Shown: positions 3,387 to 40,219 of the stretch, piece after piece
Position numbering within the stretch: the stretch's first letter is position 1
Layout: every line of letters begins with the position of its first letter
Assembly: GCA_005240075.1 (NCBI GenBank)
Contig: SBBF01000030.1
Location: forward strand, 1-41,196
DNA from: Nitrospira sp.
Lineage (GTDB): Bacteria > UBA10199 > SBBF01
Length of the DNA: 41,196 nucleotides
Reading direction: 5' to 3'
The notes under the pieces: generated by a model
What the model was told of the DNA's origin: nothing
Databases searched by the model: none
Seen by the model: the letters and a program-made list of their open reading frames with translations, nothing else
Translations under genes and position numbers: made by a program

Positions 3387-3390
3387 TCAT

Positions 3391-3492
3391 GTAGGGGCGA
3401 TCCCGCCCCGCGGGGGCCTTGTGATCGCCCGCATCGTAGAGGCGAGGTCTCCTTGCCCGATATAAAAGGGCGAACATAAAGTTCGCCCCTAC
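3391..3492. repeat. Palindromic element with 10 bp terminal inverted repeats, copy 1
   Basis: The element starts with GTAGGGGCGA (3391-3400) and ends with its exact reverse complement TCGCCCCTAC (3483-3492). Internal palindromes are GGGCGATC...GATCGCCC and GGGCGAAC...GTTCGCCC. Its reverse complement matches the element at 8406-8478, with the same two arms and an extra middle palindrome. It has no coding capacity and resembles a MITE or REP-type miniature element. It lies within the xerC-hslV gap and ends 17 bases before the hslV start codon. Confidence 0.85.
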
Positions 3493-8409: not shown

Positions 8410-8478
8410 GGGCGAATCTTGTATTCGCCCCTCAACGAGGGCGATCACAGAGCCCCCGTGGGGCGAGATCGCCCCTAC
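8406..8478. repeat. Palindromic element with terminal inverted repeats, copy 2
   Basis: The element runs from GTAAGGGCGA (8406-8415) to TCGCCCCTAC (8469-8478), a 9 of 10 inverted match. It holds two stem-loops: GGGCGAAT...ATTCGCCC at the left and GGGCGATC...GATCGCCC at the right, the latter with an internal CCCCCGTGGGG. The right half matches the reverse complement of the left half of 3391-3492 closely. It separates argF from argG and ends 9 bases before the argG start. The argG frame is open through part of it, but that segment is not homologous to ArgG proteins. Confidence 0.82.
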
Positions 8479-8487
8479 ATTGAAATT

Positions 8488-13141: not shown

Positions 13142-13215
13142 TGAGCGAGAATCGGGCTTTGCCCGTTCGAGCGAATACCCAGGGGGTTTGGGGGAGGCCA
13201 GCGGCCAGTCCCCCA
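13142..13215 (+). repeat. Structured repeat between convergent genes, related to the 18685 and 38973 copies
   Basis: The element fills precisely the 74 bases between the phosphodiesterase stop and the dnaK stop. It contains CGGGC-TTT-GCCCG (compare CTGGC-TTT-GCCAG in the other copies), then a GGGGGTTTGGGGG block, then a stem GGCC-AGC-GGCC, enclosed by GGGGGA and TCCCCC on the minus strand. Order and spacing resemble the 18685-18784 element. It may also act as a transcription barrier for the two convergent genes, although there is no U-run. Confidence 0.6.
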
Positions 13216-18620: not shown

Positions 18621-18649
18621 TTGACGTCTGGTCAGAAAACTGGTACTTT
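18621..18649 (+). promoter_or_regulatory. Candidate promoter for the IHF/HU gene
   Basis: TTGACG (18621-18626) and TACTTT (18644-18649) are separated by exactly 17 bases. The predicted transcript would start near 18656 and would include the whole structured repeat at 18685-18784 in its leader. This is a pattern match only. Confidence 0.5.
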
Positions 18650-18684
18650 GTTAGTAATTTTAGTTACTTATGAAGAAAAAAGCG

Positions 18685-18784
18685 GAGCATCTGGCTTTGC
18701 CAGTGCGAAGCGCGGGGCTTGGGGCCATCTGAGGCCCGAAACAAAATAATGCGAATAGCATCAAACGGGCCGAAGGGGCCCCAA
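18685..18784 (+). repeat. Structured leader repeat, copy upstream of the IHF/HU gene
   Basis: This 100 bp element is about 94% identical to 38973-39071, with five substitutions and one missing base. It shows three stem-loops: CTGGC-TTT-GCCAG, GGGCC-ATCTGA-GGCCC (18722-18726 with 18733-18737), and GGGCC-GAAGG-GGCCC (18767-18771 with 18777-18781). The last loop, GAAGG, resembles a ribosome binding site. Because all arms are GGGCC or GGCCC, alternative pairings between hairpins are possible. The element ends 5 bases before the ATG at 18790. Confidence 0.88.
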
Positions 18785-18789
18785 ATATT

Positions 18790-19104
18790 ATGAATAAATC
18801 TGATTTAATCGATATCCTGGCGGCAAAGTTGAACCAGCCTCGGAAGAAAGCGGAAGAGGTAATTAATCTTATTTTTGATTCGATGACCGAAACGTTAGCG
18901 ACGGGGGGGAGGATTGAAATTCGCGGATTTGGCAGTTTTTTCCCCAAAGAATATGGGGCTTACGTTGGGCGGAATCCCCGCACCGGTGAAGCGATTCAGG
19001 TAAAACCCAAAAGACTCCCTTTTTTCAAAGTGGGCAAGGAGTTGAAAGAACGCGTTGATGGAGAAAAGGGAGCGGGCAGTGGACAACAGACCGAACCTGT
19101 CTGA
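18790..19104 (+). CDS. IHF/HU family DNA-binding protein
   Basis: This small nucleoid-associated protein bends DNA as a dimer. The 104-residue product has the family's helical dimerisation part (MNKSDLIDILAAKLNQP) and the beta-arm region RIEIRGFGSFFPKEYGAYVGRNPRTGE, which ends in KVGKELKERV. IEIRGFGSF and GRNPRTGE are closer to the IHF-beta subfamily than to HU, but the call between them is not secure. A short hydrophilic tail (about 10 residues) extends beyond the usual end. The only ribosome-site-like sequence is the GAAGG in the loop of the upstream repeat, 13 bases before the ATG. The 3' end overlaps the dprA start. Confidence 0.9.
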   Translation: MNKSDLIDILAAKLNQPRKKAEEVINLIFDSMTETLATGGRIEIRGFGSFFPKEYGAYVGRNPRTGEAIQVKPKRLPFFKVGKELKERVDGEKGAGSGQQTEPV

Positions 19105-27312: not shown

Positions 27313-28668
27313 ATGAAAAAATTTTTGTTGCTTTTAGCCCTCGCCGGAGGGCTCTTTTTTTCCCAAAATATTTTTGCCGGAGGCCCTTTTGTGGTGAATG
27401 AAGAGGGGGTTGCCTCCACATGGGATAATTCATCAGCTGTGGCCCTTCATCCGGAAGGGGGAACCTGTGCTGGTTTTTCAAATAGCCAGATGGACGACAA
27501 AATCGAGGAAAATGTAGCGCACTGGTCAGGCATTGCAGGCATTGAACTTGATTTTGCCCTGGTAGACGGTTCCATTGCCGAGGATGTGACTGCCAGCAAT
27601 TACGAGGACTATTATGTCGATTCCTCGGATGATCCGGGCCTTAATGACTCGTTAAACCCTGTGATTTTTGATGATGATGCCGGCATTGTGGCTGATCTTT
27701 TTGGAGCGGCTAACCGGTTTGTCGTTTTGGGTTTTGCCGGTCCGGACGGATTTGCAGACGAAACCTTAGAGAAGATTGTGGATGGCCAGGCTTTTTTTAA
27801 CTGCCTTTGTCTGGACGGCAATCCCAACGACGCTTGCATGGGGGGGATTGTTTTTACCGAGGATGACCTTGATTTTACGATGACGCATGAAATCGGGCAC
27901 ATGCTCGGATTTGACCACACGCAGGTCAATCAGGCGCTAGCCGAAGGGACCAATTGCGATCTGGATCTGTTGGGAGATTGCGCCGATATCCCGACGATGT
28001 ATCCCCAATCAATCGATCCAGGGGACCAGATCACTCCTCACCGGGATGACGAAGTGATTGCTTTGACTCTCTACGGCAATTCAACTTGGGAGAATACTCT
28101 CTGTACGGTGACCGGCTCATTGACAGATGTGAATGGGGATCCGCTTCGATGTGCTGATGTCCAGGCTGAAACGGGCGATACAACGGATACCATTGCGGTG
28201 GTGTCGGGCGCTTTTGCACCGGCTTCGGATGACGATGGAGATGGTTATACCGATGGAGAAGGAGAGTGTTTGTCCGATTGTGGTGATTTTACTTTAAGGG
28301 GGCTGGATCCCGATCTTGACTATACGATTACCGTCAAGTCGATTGATTCCAGTTGGACCGGTGGCTCCAGCATTTCCCCCTGCGGGACCGGGCAATTGTC
28401 CGGTATTAAAGAAGAAGAGATTTCAACCGTCACGACCTGTACTGCTGGCGGCACCGTGGCTCTGGGAACCGTTCAAACCGCTTCTACGGGAGGGATTAAA
28501 GAGGGGGATGGGGGTGATGGTGACGACGACGGTGATACAACTGAATCTGTCCGCATTGGATGCACTCTTTCTCTCACTGAACAGGTTGACATCCCTCTTT
28601 CTTGTTATTTGATGACTTTAATTCTTTTCGGGCTTTTCCTTGTCAAAAGGGTTGGTGAAGGTGTATAA
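27313..28668 (+). CDS. Matrixin-like zinc metalloprotease, first of a tandem pair
   Basis: The 451-residue exported protein starts with a signal peptide cut near NIFA-GGPF. The zinc site is a canonical metzincin motif, HEIGHMLGFDH (H192, E193, H196, H202), with a likely Met-turn in DIPTMYPQ about 30 residues later. Acidic tracts such as YYVDSSDDPGLNDSLNPV and a [12 protein letters not shown] element resemble calcium-binding repeats. After the protease comes a carboxypeptidase-regulatory-like beta domain (about 255-340), then a low-complexity glycine and aspartate stretch. A C-terminal hydrophobic helix with a K-R tail may anchor it, as in surface-sorting signals. No pro-domain cysteine switch is evident. 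It is 40-50% similar by eye to the next gene. Confidence 0.82.
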   Translation: MKKFLLLLALAGGLFFSQNIFAGGPFVVNEEGVASTWDNSSAVALHPEGGTCAGFSNSQMDDKIEENVAHWSGIAGIELDFALVDGSIAEDVTASNYEDYYVDSSDDPGLNDSLNPVIFDDDAGIVADLFGAANRFVVLGFAGPDGFADETLEKIVDGQAFFNCLCLDGNPNDACMGGIVFTEDDLDFTMTHEIGHMLGFDHTQVNQALAEGTNCDLDLLGDCADIPTMYPQSIDPGDQITPHRDDEVIALTLYGNSTWENTLCTVTGSLTDVNGDPLRCADVQAETGDTTDTIAVVSGAFAPASDDDGDGYTDGEGECLSDCGDFTLRGLDPDLDYTITVKSIDSSWTGGSSISPCGTGQLSGIKEEEISTVTTCTAGGTVALGTVQTASTGGIKEGDGGDGDDDGDTTESVRIGCTLSLTEQVDIPLSCYLMTLILFGLFLVKRVGEGV

Positions 28669-28693: not shown

Positions 28694-30124
28694 TTGAAGA
28701 TTCTCTTCTTTTTTTTGCTCATCTTTTTTCCCTGTTTGGCCTTTGCCGGGGGGCCTTTTTACGTGACCACGGAAGGGGCGCCGGTTGTCTGGGACACCAG
28801 TAATGCGGTTTCTCTCCATCCTGAAAGCGGTTTGTGCGCCGATTTTTCCAATGGAGACATGCTGGAAAAAATAACGGAAAATGTGGCCTATTGGGAAATC
28901 ATTGACGGGATTGAGTTGGATTTCGATATTGAAGAGGGAAACATTGGAGAAGATATCGACAGTTCAAATTACACCGATTACCTGGTTGACTCCAGCGATG
29001 ACAAGGGGATTGACGACGGTTTGAATCCGGTGATGTTTGATGACGACGGCGAAATAATTGTGGCCGTTTTTGGAGATGGAAACCAGTTTTCAGTCCTTGG
29101 ATTTGCCGGTCCGGACGGTTTTAGCGACGATGAAACCGAATATACCGATGGTCAGGCGCTCTTTAATTGTCTCTGCCTTGCGGGAAACGAAAACAATGGC
29201 GACTGTGAAGATCTCGGCGTTGTCTTCAGCGAAGATGATCTTAATTTTACCATGACGCACGAAATTGGGCATATGGTTGGCTTTGACCACACGCAGGTCA
29301 ATCAGGCGATGGCTGATACAATTTCTTGTGATACGACTGCTGCCGGAGACTGCGATGACATTCCGGTCATGTATCCTGTTTCGGTGGATGCGGCCGATCA
29401 GATCACGCCAACGGTTGATGACATCGTCATTGCCCTGACTCTTTACGGTCAGGATGGATGGGAGGATGAATTTTGCATTGTGTCGGGCGCTTTAACCGAT
29501 GCCGATGGAAACGAATTGCGATGTGCCGATGTTCAGGCGGTTACCGATGACACGGCCGATACGATTGCCGTGGTTTCGGGAGCCTTTGCGCCGGCTGAAG
29601 ACACCGATGGAGATGGCTACACCGATGGAGATGGGGAATGTTTGTCAGATTGCGGCTCGTTTACCCTTTATGGCCTCGATCCGGACAAGAGTTATACCAT
29701 CACCGTCAAGCCGGTTGATTCCCAATGGACCGGTGGTTCTGGTATTGGTCCCTGTTCGTCACAAAATGAAGATATTGTTGAAGAGGACATTGCGACTCTG
29801 GAAGGGTGCACTGCCGGTGCTGTGGAGGAACTGGGGACGATCCAAACAGAATCAACCTCCTCCGATACCTCCAATCAAAGTGATGATTCGGGCGACAGTT
29901 CTTCTGATTCCGGGAGCAGTGAGGATACCTGCGGAGTCGATCAGGACTTTACCACTTGCGATCCGCTGATCAGTTGCAGTTTATCGAATAAACCGGCTTC
30001 GGCTCTTCATTTTTTGTTGATTATTCTGTTGCCTGGTTTCCTCCTGTTGTGTAGATCCTTTTCATGCTTGCCTCCCATCTCTTCATGCCGACTCTCCGGG
30101 ATTCTCCCGCCGATGCGGAAGTAG
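28694..30124 (+). CDS. Matrixin-like zinc metalloprotease, second of a tandem pair
   Basis: This 476-residue paralogue of the preceding gene has the same order of parts. A signal peptide is cut near LAFA-GGPF. The zinc motif [11 protein letters not shown] has H189, E190, H193 and H199, followed by a Met-turn in [23 protein letters not shown] segment, a regulatory-like domain, a serine- and aspartate-rich linker (about 395-425) and a C-terminal hydrophobic helix follow. The start is decided by the signal peptide and a strong AAGGGGGG site (28679-28686): a TTG at 28694 begins [13 protein letters not shown]. Earlier in-frame starts would put charged residues before it. It lies 25 bases after its twin, and its last 61 bases overlap proS. 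Confidence 0.8.
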
Positions 30125-37194: not shown

Positions 37195-38970
37195 ATGGCC
37201 AAAGCCCTTCAAGAAATCACATCGGCAAGTTCTGCCGAGTATTTTTCCAAAAATCTCCAGCAGGTCGGATTTTCGTCTTACACCAAGGCGCTTTTGACCA
37301 CCATCAAGGAGGCGGTCGACAATGCCCTGGATGCCTGTGAAGAAGCCGGTATTTTACCGGAAGTTTCGGTGGTCGTGGAACGCTTGGGAGAAGCGGCTGC
37401 GAAGGGGGCTGACAAGATTCGGGTCAAAGTCGAGGACAATGGCCCCGGTTTGAGCGTTGACGATGTGGTGAAAGTTTTTGGCGAATATCTGGCCAGCTCC
37501 AAATTTGGACGGGGGCGTTGCACCCGGGGCCAGCAGGGGATCGGCATCTCCGCCGTGACGACCTGGGCGCAGCTGACCAACGCGCGGGGAGTTGTTGTCA
37601 TCACCAAAACTGCCAAAATGCGTCAGGCGGTCCAATGTCTGGTAGAAGTTGATATCAAGCACAACAAAGGGGTTTTAAAAGATAAAAAAACGGTTGAGTG
37701 GGACCGCCCCAATGGATTGTCATGCGAATTTGTGATTGATGCCCGGATTCAACTGCAGGGGGAAGGAGGGGTGCTGGTCTATTTGAACGGCACTTCCCTG
37801 GTGAATCCGCATCTGACTCTCCGGTATAAAATTCTGGATCAGGAGTGGGTTGAAATGACCCGCGTGAGCGAAGAACTTCCCTTAATTCCTCCGGCAACGG
37901 AGCCTCATCCCCATACCATGAAGTTGGGAGAGTTTATGGCGCACTCTCATTTGTTTGGCCGGGTGAAGGTGGGAGCCTGGTTGAAGAAAGGTTTTTCCAG
38001 AATTTCCGATGGAGTTTTGAATGAGCTGGCTCCTCATGGAGTTAAAAAAAATATTTTGGAAAAAAGTGTGGATGCGGCCACGGAGGACGATTTCAAAAAT
38101 GTTTTTTCAGCTCTTCAAAAAGTAAAATTGATGGCTCCCTCCACCAAAAGTGTTTTGGCAATTGGCGAGGAGAGTCTGGCCAAAAGTATTCAGCGGGTGG
38201 GGGCGGTTGATTTTTTTTCGGTCGTTTCGCGCAAGCCGACCATCTGTGATTTCAAGCCGGTCCTTGTGGAAACAGCGGTGGCCCGTCTTTCAGATCGGGG
38301 TGAAAAAGGGGAGGAAGAAACGGTCTCCCTGCTTCGTTTCGCCAATCGGGTGCCTTTGCAGTTTGACAAGGCGGCCTGTGCCATGACCAAAGCGGTCCAG
38401 TCGGTCAACTGGCGCACTTACGGGTTAAACCAGCCGAAGGAGAGCCTCCCCAACGGTCCCTATATTATTGCCATCAGTGTTGTTTCCCCCTTTATCAAAT
38501 TCAAAAATGCCTCCAAAGAAACGGTCGATGCCAGCGACGAACTGGTGGAGGAAATTCGCCGCGCCATGATTCAGGCAGGGCAGAGGCTTTCCAAGCACAT
38601 TCGTCGTGAAGAAAAGGAAGCCGATCTGGAAATGAAGCGGCGGCATATCGAACAGTTTGGGCCGATATTGGTCGATGGCTGTTGCCGGATTGTCAAAGCA
38701 GGCAAGGGGAGGAGGGAGAAGGCTCTGGAGGGACTGGCCAAACTTTTGGGGAGGGAGGCTCATCTGGCGGAAAAAGAATTAAAAGAGGCGGTGGAACATT
38801 CGGAAAAAGCACTGGCGGAGCTGCAGGAAAAAACCGGCATCTTGCCCAGCTCGGAAGATACAGAGGTAGGGGCGACCCGGCGGGTCACCCGTAGAATAAT
38901 GGAACCAGAACAGTTAAGTCTGACCGGCATGGAACAACCTAAAAAGGCCGCTAAAAAGAAAAAAAGGTAA
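37195..38970 (+). CDS. top6B: DNA topoisomerase VI subunit B
   Basis: Subunit B supplies the GHKL ATPase that drives the type IIB topoisomerase, which relaxes and decatenates DNA by double-strand passage. The 591-residue product has the N-terminal strap (ITSASSAEYFSKNLQQVGF), the N box EAVDNALDACEEAG (39-52), the G1 box VEDNGPGL (79-86) and the G2 lid CTRGQQGIGIS (109-119). An H2TH and transducer region follow (LLRFANRVPLQFDKAACAM). A lysine-rich tail (KKAAKKKKR) ends the protein. Before it, residues EVGATRRVTRRI are encoded by a palindromic segment (38866-38893) matching the intergenic GTAGGGGCGA repeat. Subunit A follows after a 106 base spacer. This enzyme is typical of archaea and plants and sporadic in bacteria. 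Confidence 0.95.
   Translation: MAKALQEITSASSAEYFSKNLQQVGFSSYTKALLTTIKEAVDNALDACEEAGILPEVSVVVERLGEAAAKGADKIRVKVEDNGPGLSVDDVVKVFGEYLASSKFGRGRCTRGQQGIGISAVTTWAQLTNARGVVVITKTAKMRQAVQCLVEVDIKHNKGVLKDKKTVEWDRPNGLSCEFVIDARIQLQGEGGVLVYLNGTSLVNPHLTLRYKILDQEWVEMTRVSEELPLIPPATEPHPHTMKLGEFMAHSHLFGRVKVGAWLKKGFSRISDGVLNELAPHGVKKNILEKSVDAATEDDFKNVFSALQKVKLMAPSTKSVLAIGEESLAKSIQRVGAVDFFSVVSRKPTICDFKPVLVETAVARLSDRGEKGEEETVSLLRFANRVPLQFDKAACAMTKAVQSVNWRTYGLNQPKESLPNGPYIIAISVVSPFIKFKNASKETVDASDELVEEIRRAMIQAGQRLSKHIRREEKEADLEMKRRHIEQFGPILVDGCCRIVKAGKGRREKALEGLAKLLGREAHLAEKELKEAVEHSEKALAELQEKTGILPSSEDTEVGATRRVTRRIMEPEQLSLTGMEQPKKAAKKKKR
38866..38893. repeat. Fragment of the GTAGGGGCGA-type palindrome inside top6B
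   Basis: GTAGGGGCGA (38866-38875) is identical to the terminal repeat at 3391-3400. It continues as GGGCGACCCG-GC-GGGTCACCC, a near-perfect palindrome. It is read in frame as part of the hydrophilic tail of subunit B. Confidence 0.55.
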
Positions 38971-38972
38971 AC

Positions 38973-39071
38973 GAGCATCTGGCTTTGCCAGTGCGAGTGC
39001 GGGGTTTGGGGCCATCTGAGGCCCGAAATAAAATATTGCGAATAGCAACAAACGGGCCGAAGGGGCCCCAA
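38973..39071 (+). repeat. Structured leader repeat, copy upstream of top6A
   Basis: This 99 bp element is about 94% identical to 18685-18784. All three hairpins are retained, including GGGCC-GAAGG-GGCCC (39054-39058 with 39064-39068), with the Shine-Dalgarno-like GAAGG in the loop. It starts 2 bases after the top6B stop and ends 5 bases before the top6A ATG, the same distance as in the other copy. Confidence 0.88.
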
Positions 39072-39076
39072 TTACT

Positions 39077-40219
39077 ATGACAAAAAGAATCGACATCAAA
39101 AATTTATCCGTTGATATGTGCGAACGTCTCTTGCGTGATTTGGAGAGGGCTAAGCGTCCGGTATTGGAAGCCACCAAATGCACGCTGGATAATTCTCTCT
39201 ATAATCCGAAGGTGGGCTATTTGACCCCCGGCGACAAAAAAGTCCAGACGGAATTGAACGTCAGTTCCGTCCAGAAAATGTCGCGGGCTATCTTTATTCT
39301 GGAAATTCTTTTGAGGAATCTGGATGTGGGGGCGACCAACACCAAGCGTGAAATTTACTATATTGCCAAGGGTGAAATCAAACATAACGCGGCATTAAAG
39401 CCCCTTGATTTTGCCGACCAGAACGAATCAGACGAAATCATCGATTTTATCTGTGAAATGCTGGAGTGCTACCGCGAAGATGTGAATTGTTTTGCCAACG
39501 ACCGCGGCGGCCAGACCTACAGCCAGCAATTGGTTGTTCATGAAACGATGCCCGATGGAACCAAAGCGATCATCGATCTTTCCAGACTGGGGACCGCCCC
39601 GTTTCAACCCAAAAACCGGCCGCAGGATTTAAAACTCAGAGCCAAAAAGAAGATTGATTTTTGCGTGATTGTAGAGTCAGAAGGCACCGCCAATACCTTG
39701 GTCAACAGCGGTTTTACCAAACGACACAGTTGCATTCTGTTGGGGGCACAAGGGGTTCCCTCGAATGCTGTTCGGGGGTGGACCAAACTGATTCAGGACC
39801 AGTTGGATGTTCCCTGTTATTTTTTTGGAGATCTGGACGCTTACACCATGCAGAATATTTTCCGCACGTTGAAGGCAGGCTCCGCTGGAAGCCTGATTCG
39901 CAACTCTGATTTCAGCGCTCCGGAAGTCCGTTTCTTAGGAGTGCTTCCCGAGGATATCAAAAAATATGATTTGCCTGATTACGCGGTCAAGGAAAACGAC
40001 GCCTCCGAATCGCGCGCGCTCAAAAAAGCGCGCGATGCGTTAAACAACGATCCATTCTTCAAAGACAAGCGCAACAAAGGGGTAGCCGATATTTTAAAGT
40101 GGTTGATCGTGCACAAACGTCGTTGCGAGCAACAGGCTTATTTTAGTGTAAACCCCCGCGATCCCCTCATGCCGGAAAAAATCATCCTCGATAAAATCAA
40201 AAACAAAAATTTTGTTTAA
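39077..40219 (+). CDS. top6A: DNA topoisomerase VI subunit A (Spo11-like)
   Basis: Subunit A cleaves both DNA strands through a tyrosine-phosphate bond. The 380-residue product has a winged-helix 5Y-CAP domain with the catalytic tyrosine Y95 in TKREIYYIAKG. A TOPRIM domain follows, with the metal-binding glutamate E200 in VIVESEGTAN and the D-x-D pair D252 and D254 in FFGDLDAYTMQN. Length and order match archaeal Top6A and Spo11. The only candidate ribosome site is the GAAGG in the upstream repeat loop, so its expression may depend on that element. It is probably co-transcribed with top6B. No promoter is visible in between. Confidence 0.95.
   Translation: MTKRIDIKNLSVDMCERLLRDLERAKRPVLEATKCTLDNSLYNPKVGYLTPGDKKVQTELNVSSVQKMSRAIFILEILLRNLDVGATNTKREIYYIAKGEIKHNAALKPLDFADQNESDEIIDFICEMLECYREDVNCFANDRGGQTYSQQLVVHETMPDGTKAIIDLSRLGTAPFQPKNRPQDLKLRAKKKIDFCVIVESEGTANTLVNSGFTKRHSCILLGAQGVPSNAVRGWTKLIQDQLDVPCYFFGDLDAYTMQNIFRTLKAGSAGSLIRNSDFSAPEVRFLGVLPEDIKKYDLPDYAVKENDASESRALKKARDALNNDPFFKDKRNKGVADILKWLIVHKRRCEQQAYFSVNPRDPLMPEKIILDKIKNKNFV

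Follow-up and report, generated by a model that had tools for sequence, protein, structure and literature searches.

What is a sequence of about 100 nucleotides (nt) doing, almost unchanged, directly in front of two different genes? The question is raised by contig SBBF01000030.1 of Nitrospira sp., an uncultured bacterium (assembly GCA_005240075.1); positions 1 to 41,196 were analysed and are referred to here as the window. One copy of the sequence precedes the gene for an HU/IHF-family DNA-binding protein and the other that for topoisomerase VI subunit A. An earlier note, made from the sequence alone, had proposed a structured mRNA leader that might switch translation, and had allowed that it could instead be a mobile repeat inserted at these places. 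Comparison of copies from related genomes favours the alternative: the sequence is probably a non-autonomous mobile palindromic repeat of ~105 nt, which inserts right next to start codons, on their 5' side and in the orientation of the gene. As such it would represent a new family of mobile palindromic repeats, set apart by its tight placement at start codons. Its features in the window are listed below, where R1 denotes the covariance model made from 22 of the copies.

18681..18784, + strand: copy 1 of the repeat (R1 positions 1-104), directly 5' of the HU/IHF-like gene (R1 E 2.8e-25; BLAST)
18681..18713, + strand: copy 1, hairpin 1, top CUGGC-UUU-GCCAG, with a variable lower stem that covaries among copies (covariation, fold)
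18719..18738, + strand: copy 1, 5' arm of the long hairpin, UUGGGGCC-A-UCU-GA-GGCCCG (fold, covariation)
18750..18760, + strand: copy 1, small apical hairpin UGC-GAAUA-GCA, with a conserved GARUA loop (alignment, covariation)
18766..18784, + strand: copy 1, 3' arm of the long hairpin, CGGGCC-GA-AGG-GGCCCC-AA, which includes the paired GAAGG (fold, covariation, strand test)
18785..18789, + strand: copy 1, A/U-rich spacer up to the start codon, joining the preceding AA in a 7-nt consensus (copy alignment)
18790..19104, + strand: gene for the HU/IHF-family DNA-binding protein, its start codon abutted by copy 1 (PF00216, E 2e-29)
38970..39071, + strand: copy 2 of the repeat, occupying the interval from the stop codon of topoisomerase VI B to the start codon of topoisomerase VI A (R1 E 4.3e-24)
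39072..39076, + strand: copy 2, A/U-rich spacer (sequence, copy alignment)
39077..40219, + strand: gene for topoisomerase VI subunit A, its start codon abutted by copy 2 (PF21180, PF04406)

The two copies share 94 identities over 99 aligned columns, with one gap, and in both the conserved block is followed by 5 nt and then by the ATG (18790 for HU and 39077 for topoisomerase VI A), just as the earlier note had described. Both are far more stably folded than their shuffled versions (z -4.2 for copy 1, -4.1 for copy 2). As judged by eye, copies 1 and 2 have an uninterrupted upstream open reading frame (ORF) that runs up to the start codon, but in other copies it is out of frame. No Rfam family reached its gathering threshold in the window and none matched over the element at E ≤ 5, while Rfam matches in neighbouring loci were to tRNA and rRNA only. 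A promoter proposed at 18621-18649 was not found by a scan for the sigma-70 consensus, although such a scan is weak evidence.

The repeat is abundant, well above chance expectation, in the window's own genome (G000; 1.96 Mb in 117 contigs), where BLAST gave 43 matches and R1 gave 134 at E ≤ 0.1, about 43 of them with E below 1e-9; about 44 copies of the ~105-nt unit are present. Two other genera of the same family (genomes G001 and G002) have 55 and 16 copies (R1, E ≤ 1e-6). Outside the family, at the same threshold, just one copy occurs in one further family of the order, small numbers occur in several families of the class, and the majority of families lack the repeat. The repeat had no match in phages or plasmids, and a loose pattern of the element had none in viral contigs. 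NCBI contigs that match the loose pattern carry titles of Deltaproteobacteria metagenome-assembled genomes from groundwater; one contig titled Cedecea neteri (L231) also matches, probably by chance.

Placement relative to genes was counted for 108 distinct copies in G000, G001 and G002; only the sequence downstream of the 3' end was inspected, so the count concerns copies lying in the sense direction. A start codon is found 3 to 12 nt past the last C of GGGGCCCC in 89 of these copies, and an ATG 6 to 8 nt past it in 75, with 7 the commonest spacing. A portable structured element at a near-constant distance from start codons, as the earlier note had envisaged, is what is seen across many copies. 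In most copies of the family CCCC is followed by the 7-nt consensus AA[A/G]T[A/C/T][T/A]A and, as the spacer is itself a consensus, it probably belongs to the element.

The genes behind the copies are functionally unrelated and of housekeeping type. In G000 they include those for HU and topVIA (both from Pfam matches) and, named by eye from their N-termini, thrS, lysC, rplJ, dxr, ahcY, infA, nuoB, lepA, gatC, glpK, gltA, greA, nrdR, mraZ and truB; in G001, named in the same way, they include rplC, rpmB, dnaK, glmS, ilvD, ilvN and ruvC. With no function common to these genes, a regulon was rejected, and the theme of DNA topology suggested by the two genes in the window does not extend to the family. 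Some copies, most of them in other families of the class, adjoin the end of a tRNA gene or a terminator-like hairpin and not a start codon, and one copy outside the family lies in a 16S-23S spacer.

Evidence for mobility comes from comparing orthologous positions, about six of some 40 to 55 being occupied both in G000 and in G001 or G002, against roughly one expected by chance (a rough estimate). So few shared positions indicate that most insertions are lineage-specific; those that are shared may mark preferred insertion sites, or some may be ancient copies that were kept (nrdR, mraZ). Insertion is seen at an empty site: locus L155 of G001 reads CCGGAAAAATA[element]GTATAATGTC, whereas G002 has CCGGAAAAATAAATGTC, a clean insertion directly before the start codon. 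Empty orthologous sites of the same kind correspond to L104, L126 and L122. Two further copies, L023 and L012, are flanked by near-perfect direct repeats (49 and 45 bp, respectively) of the 3' end of the upstream gene, with scores of 44 and 40 compared with a null maximum of 12.5. L012 lies at a fliP-fliQ-type junction (named by eye), and at both loci the bordering ATG does not begin a long gene. Lineage-specific positions, empty sites and flanking duplications thus all support the mobile repeat that the earlier note had offered as its alternative.

The element is also a conserved structure. In an alignment of 75 full-length copies (A2), the structure comprises hairpin 1 and one long hairpin carrying the small apical hairpin, with 86% of cells paired and 329 double-change cells, compared with 89 after shuffling and no more than 75 in controls with slid partners. 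As the structure was partly derived from the same sequences and many copies are related, shuffles overstate its significance and the slid controls are the safer guide. Compensatory changes exceed both, as in a structured RNA, and the minimum-free-energy fold agrees with covariation. The fold is maintained by compensatory change; such changes, together with many copies at a similar distance from start codons, are what the earlier note had asked of a covariance-model search.

The three stem-loops first described, of which the last was proposed to display GAAGG in its loop and the second and third to re-pair with each other as a switch, are not confirmed. Drawn as separate hairpins (GGGCC-AUCUGA-GGCCC and GGGCC-GAAGG-GGCCC), the copies give six double-change cells, no excess over slid versions, a test of limited power because these arms hardly vary. 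More informative is the UCUGA/GAAGG stretch between them, whose two sides vary together (UUGUU/AACAG, UAGAA/UUCUG, UCGAA/GACGG and others); this pairing is possible only in a long hairpin, and one long hairpin is therefore favoured over two. It is not universal, since in about nine G001 copies a foreign hairpin replaces the 5' arm.

Which strand is constrained can be read from the non-Watson-Crick positions. A U.G wobble is almost invariant (72 of 75 copies), tandem GA/GA mismatches occur in 51 and 33 of the 75 copies, and G.U exceeds A.C at well-paired positions (35 versus 16), all of which identify the sense strand as the constrained one. The sense-strand fold could act as single-stranded DNA as well as RNA. 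Foreign hairpins were also seen nested at the same spots in several copies (L015, L018, L020, L022, L025 and L027; L130-L143): TCCAGCACTCAAAGGCTTTTGAGTGCTGGA in G000 and CCTGCCCGCCGGATTGGCAGGCGGG at the bulged A in G001.

Could the repeat nevertheless be a translational regulatory leader, which controls initiation over a regulon through hairpins 2 and 3 that pair with each other and so mask or expose a ribosome site? Its placement at start codons and its conserved sense-strand fold would suit such a role, as would its presence before nrdR in both G000 and G001, with a short relative there in G037, a genome of another family. The putative ribosome site, however, is a paired strand which in many copies has been exchanged compensatorily (AACAG, UUCUG, UUGCAG and others), and these copies still abut an ATG. 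Being neither conserved nor retained when pairing is, GAAGG is not generally a Shine-Dalgarno sequence, and no conserved ribosome-site sequence was found in or before the element in the copies of G000, G001 and G002. The failure of the separate hairpins to covary above slid controls, the lack of a common function downstream, the mostly unconserved positions among genera and the copies at tRNA ends and terminator-like hairpins also speak against regulation. A leader of this kind is unlikely; a translational switch lacks support overall, although individual genes may differ. The region in front of nrdR also holds palindromic repeats in a number of genomes of the class (L232-L261); they differ in kind and lie between the nrdR start codon and the gene before it.

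Still less probable is an insert that landed between an existing Shine-Dalgarno sequence and its AUG and whose compact fold bridges the two. In individual copies a good Shine-Dalgarno motif does end the left flank (for example, L092, L100 and L128), but Shine-Dalgarno-like tetramers occur in only 24 of the 108 left flanks, no more than in shuffled sequence (24%), and several of the empty sites in G002 have no such motif. As a general rule, insertion at this point was rejected because the left flanks are not enriched. Movement of a repetitive extragenic palindrome (REP)-like sequence by a REP-associated tyrosine transposase (RAYT, of the Y1 type) is equally improbable: the element is palindromic and Y1 transposases occur in 35 of 40 relatives, but Y1 matches are short or partial in G000 (where the match is at a contig edge) and G001 and absent from G002, the genomes richest in copies, RAYT genes that were inspected are flanked by other repeats, and the GTAG tag is not conserved (GARUAG).

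The mobile repeat therefore remains the preferred explanation. The element would have multiplied within the bacterial family by inserting 5' of the start codons of unrelated genes, so that an inserted copy would form the last part of an mRNA leader or filler between two genes of an operon. Each insert would bring its own A/U-rich spacer, about 7 nt, before the AUG. The fold may be needed when the element moves, whether as RNA or as single-stranded DNA, or may keep the insert compact so that the AUG stays usable. Genes bearing an insert would presumably initiate without Shine-Dalgarno pairing.

Several observations weigh against this explanation. Long flanking duplications are limited to two copies, the others being at or near the null, although target duplications of 1 to 2 bp are below the resolution of the flank comparison. 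The copies at nrdR and mraZ in two genera could mean a conserved function at some genes, and nrdR is also the gene preceded by the short relative in G037. No mobilizing enzyme was found in a search confined to Y1 transposases, and at six Y1/RAYT loci inspected in the class the repeats are different ones or nothing similar is present. Finally, an element that recognizes only ATG should also enter other intergenic ATGs, yet most copies are at start codons. A minority of copies not at start codons still border an ATG, but in the window 32 ATGs are start codons and ~96 are other non-coding ATGs (an overestimate, as quick gene calls miss genes), too few start codons to explain the distribution; ATG as the sole target motif was rejected. 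A bias beyond ATG requires either some form of targeting or functional selection: the element may be directed to start codons, copies at other places may have been lost, or those at starts may be useful.

A wider class of mobile elements that target the translation-initiation site may be glimpsed here, if only tentatively. Such elements would recognize start codons or be guided to them and would replace the ribosome-binding region by a folded RNA that still permits initiation at the AUG without Shine-Dalgarno pairing. Small repeats normally land in varied intergenic places, whereas here a folded 105-nt unit stands at a nearly constant spacing before dozens of starts, and many of the genes concerned are presumably essential, with no recognizable ribosome-binding sequence left. 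By what means a mobile element locates start codons, and how translation can begin immediately after so stable a hairpin, are testable questions, made approachable by dozens of copies in three genera and several empty sites.

Other repeats were seen in the same genome. A second family (L080-L090) shares hairpin 1, with GAAGAATCTGGCTTTGCCAGTTCTGA followed by CCTTCATGG...GGAAGGTAT; it lies 14 to 24 nt 5' of several start codons, from which it is separated by an AAGGAG that looks native, and two of its copies (L088 and L090) end 3 nt 5' of an ATG. In the window, a weak relative of R1 at 13144-13215 (E 0.026) is antisense, with its 3' end adjoining the dnaK stop codon. Positions 3389-3430 and 8439-8480 are inverted copies of a hairpin repeat, TGTAGGGGCGA...TCGCCCCTACA, and similar hairpins precede start codons in G002. 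A direct repeat (27848-27944 and 29220-29316, 84% identical) within two neighbouring ORFs, both encoding a metalloprotease motif of the HEIGHMLGFDH type, has the look of a duplicated gene.

No published description of the repeat was found, in a literature search that was thin on subscription journals. Among known classes, neither an Rfam match nor a common downstream function points to a riboswitch or other leader. An origin from integron attC sites was set aside on general attC features, since the copies are scattered beside core genes, with no cassette arrays and no GTTRRRY core noticed. The ends (AAGCGA... and ...CCCCAARTATA) are not mutually inverted, as terminal inverted repeats of a miniature inverted-repeat transposable element (MITE) would be. 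ERIC/Correia-type repeats are of similar size (100-150 bp). They are MITE-like, non-coding, mostly intergenic and of high copy number, and their transcripts fold into stem-loops; they can be part of transcripts and influence these (PMC10969869, a review of small palindromic mobile repeats). By contrast, neither terminal inverted repeats nor a short target duplication could be seen in the present repeat, which is sense-oriented and flush with start codons and has flanking duplications of 45 to 49 bp in two copies. Rickettsia palindromic elements are likewise palindromic mobile families (~150 bp) found across unrelated metabolic genes (PMC10969869), but many insert in-frame within coding regions rather than directly before a start codon.

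REP sequences and bacterial interspersed mosaic elements (BIMEs), with their RAYTs, are also dispersed extragenic palindromes; compared with their description in PMC3733652, the present repeat is longer, lies upstream of starts and has no associated RAYT that was found. Neither a GTAG nor a CGTC tag stands beside its hairpins, the nearest sequence being GARUAG in the apical loop (R = A or G), and it flanks no RAYT gene at the six Y1 loci of the class. Tandem repeats of CATAACTCATAACCCATAACT were seen directly 5' of several start codons at ortholog loci of another genome (G005; L188, L208, L218 and L227), an arrangement resembling that of the TAACTGA repeats. The closest published description found is that of the TAACTGA heptamer repeats of marine Beggiatoaceae, which lie directly 5' of the start codons of unrelated genes, largely replace the Shine-Dalgarno sequence and have an unknown role (PMC4679880). 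The likeness is in placement; TAACTGA repeats are unstructured tandem 7-mers, whereas the present repeat is a covarying two-hairpin unit of ~105 nt with empty sites.
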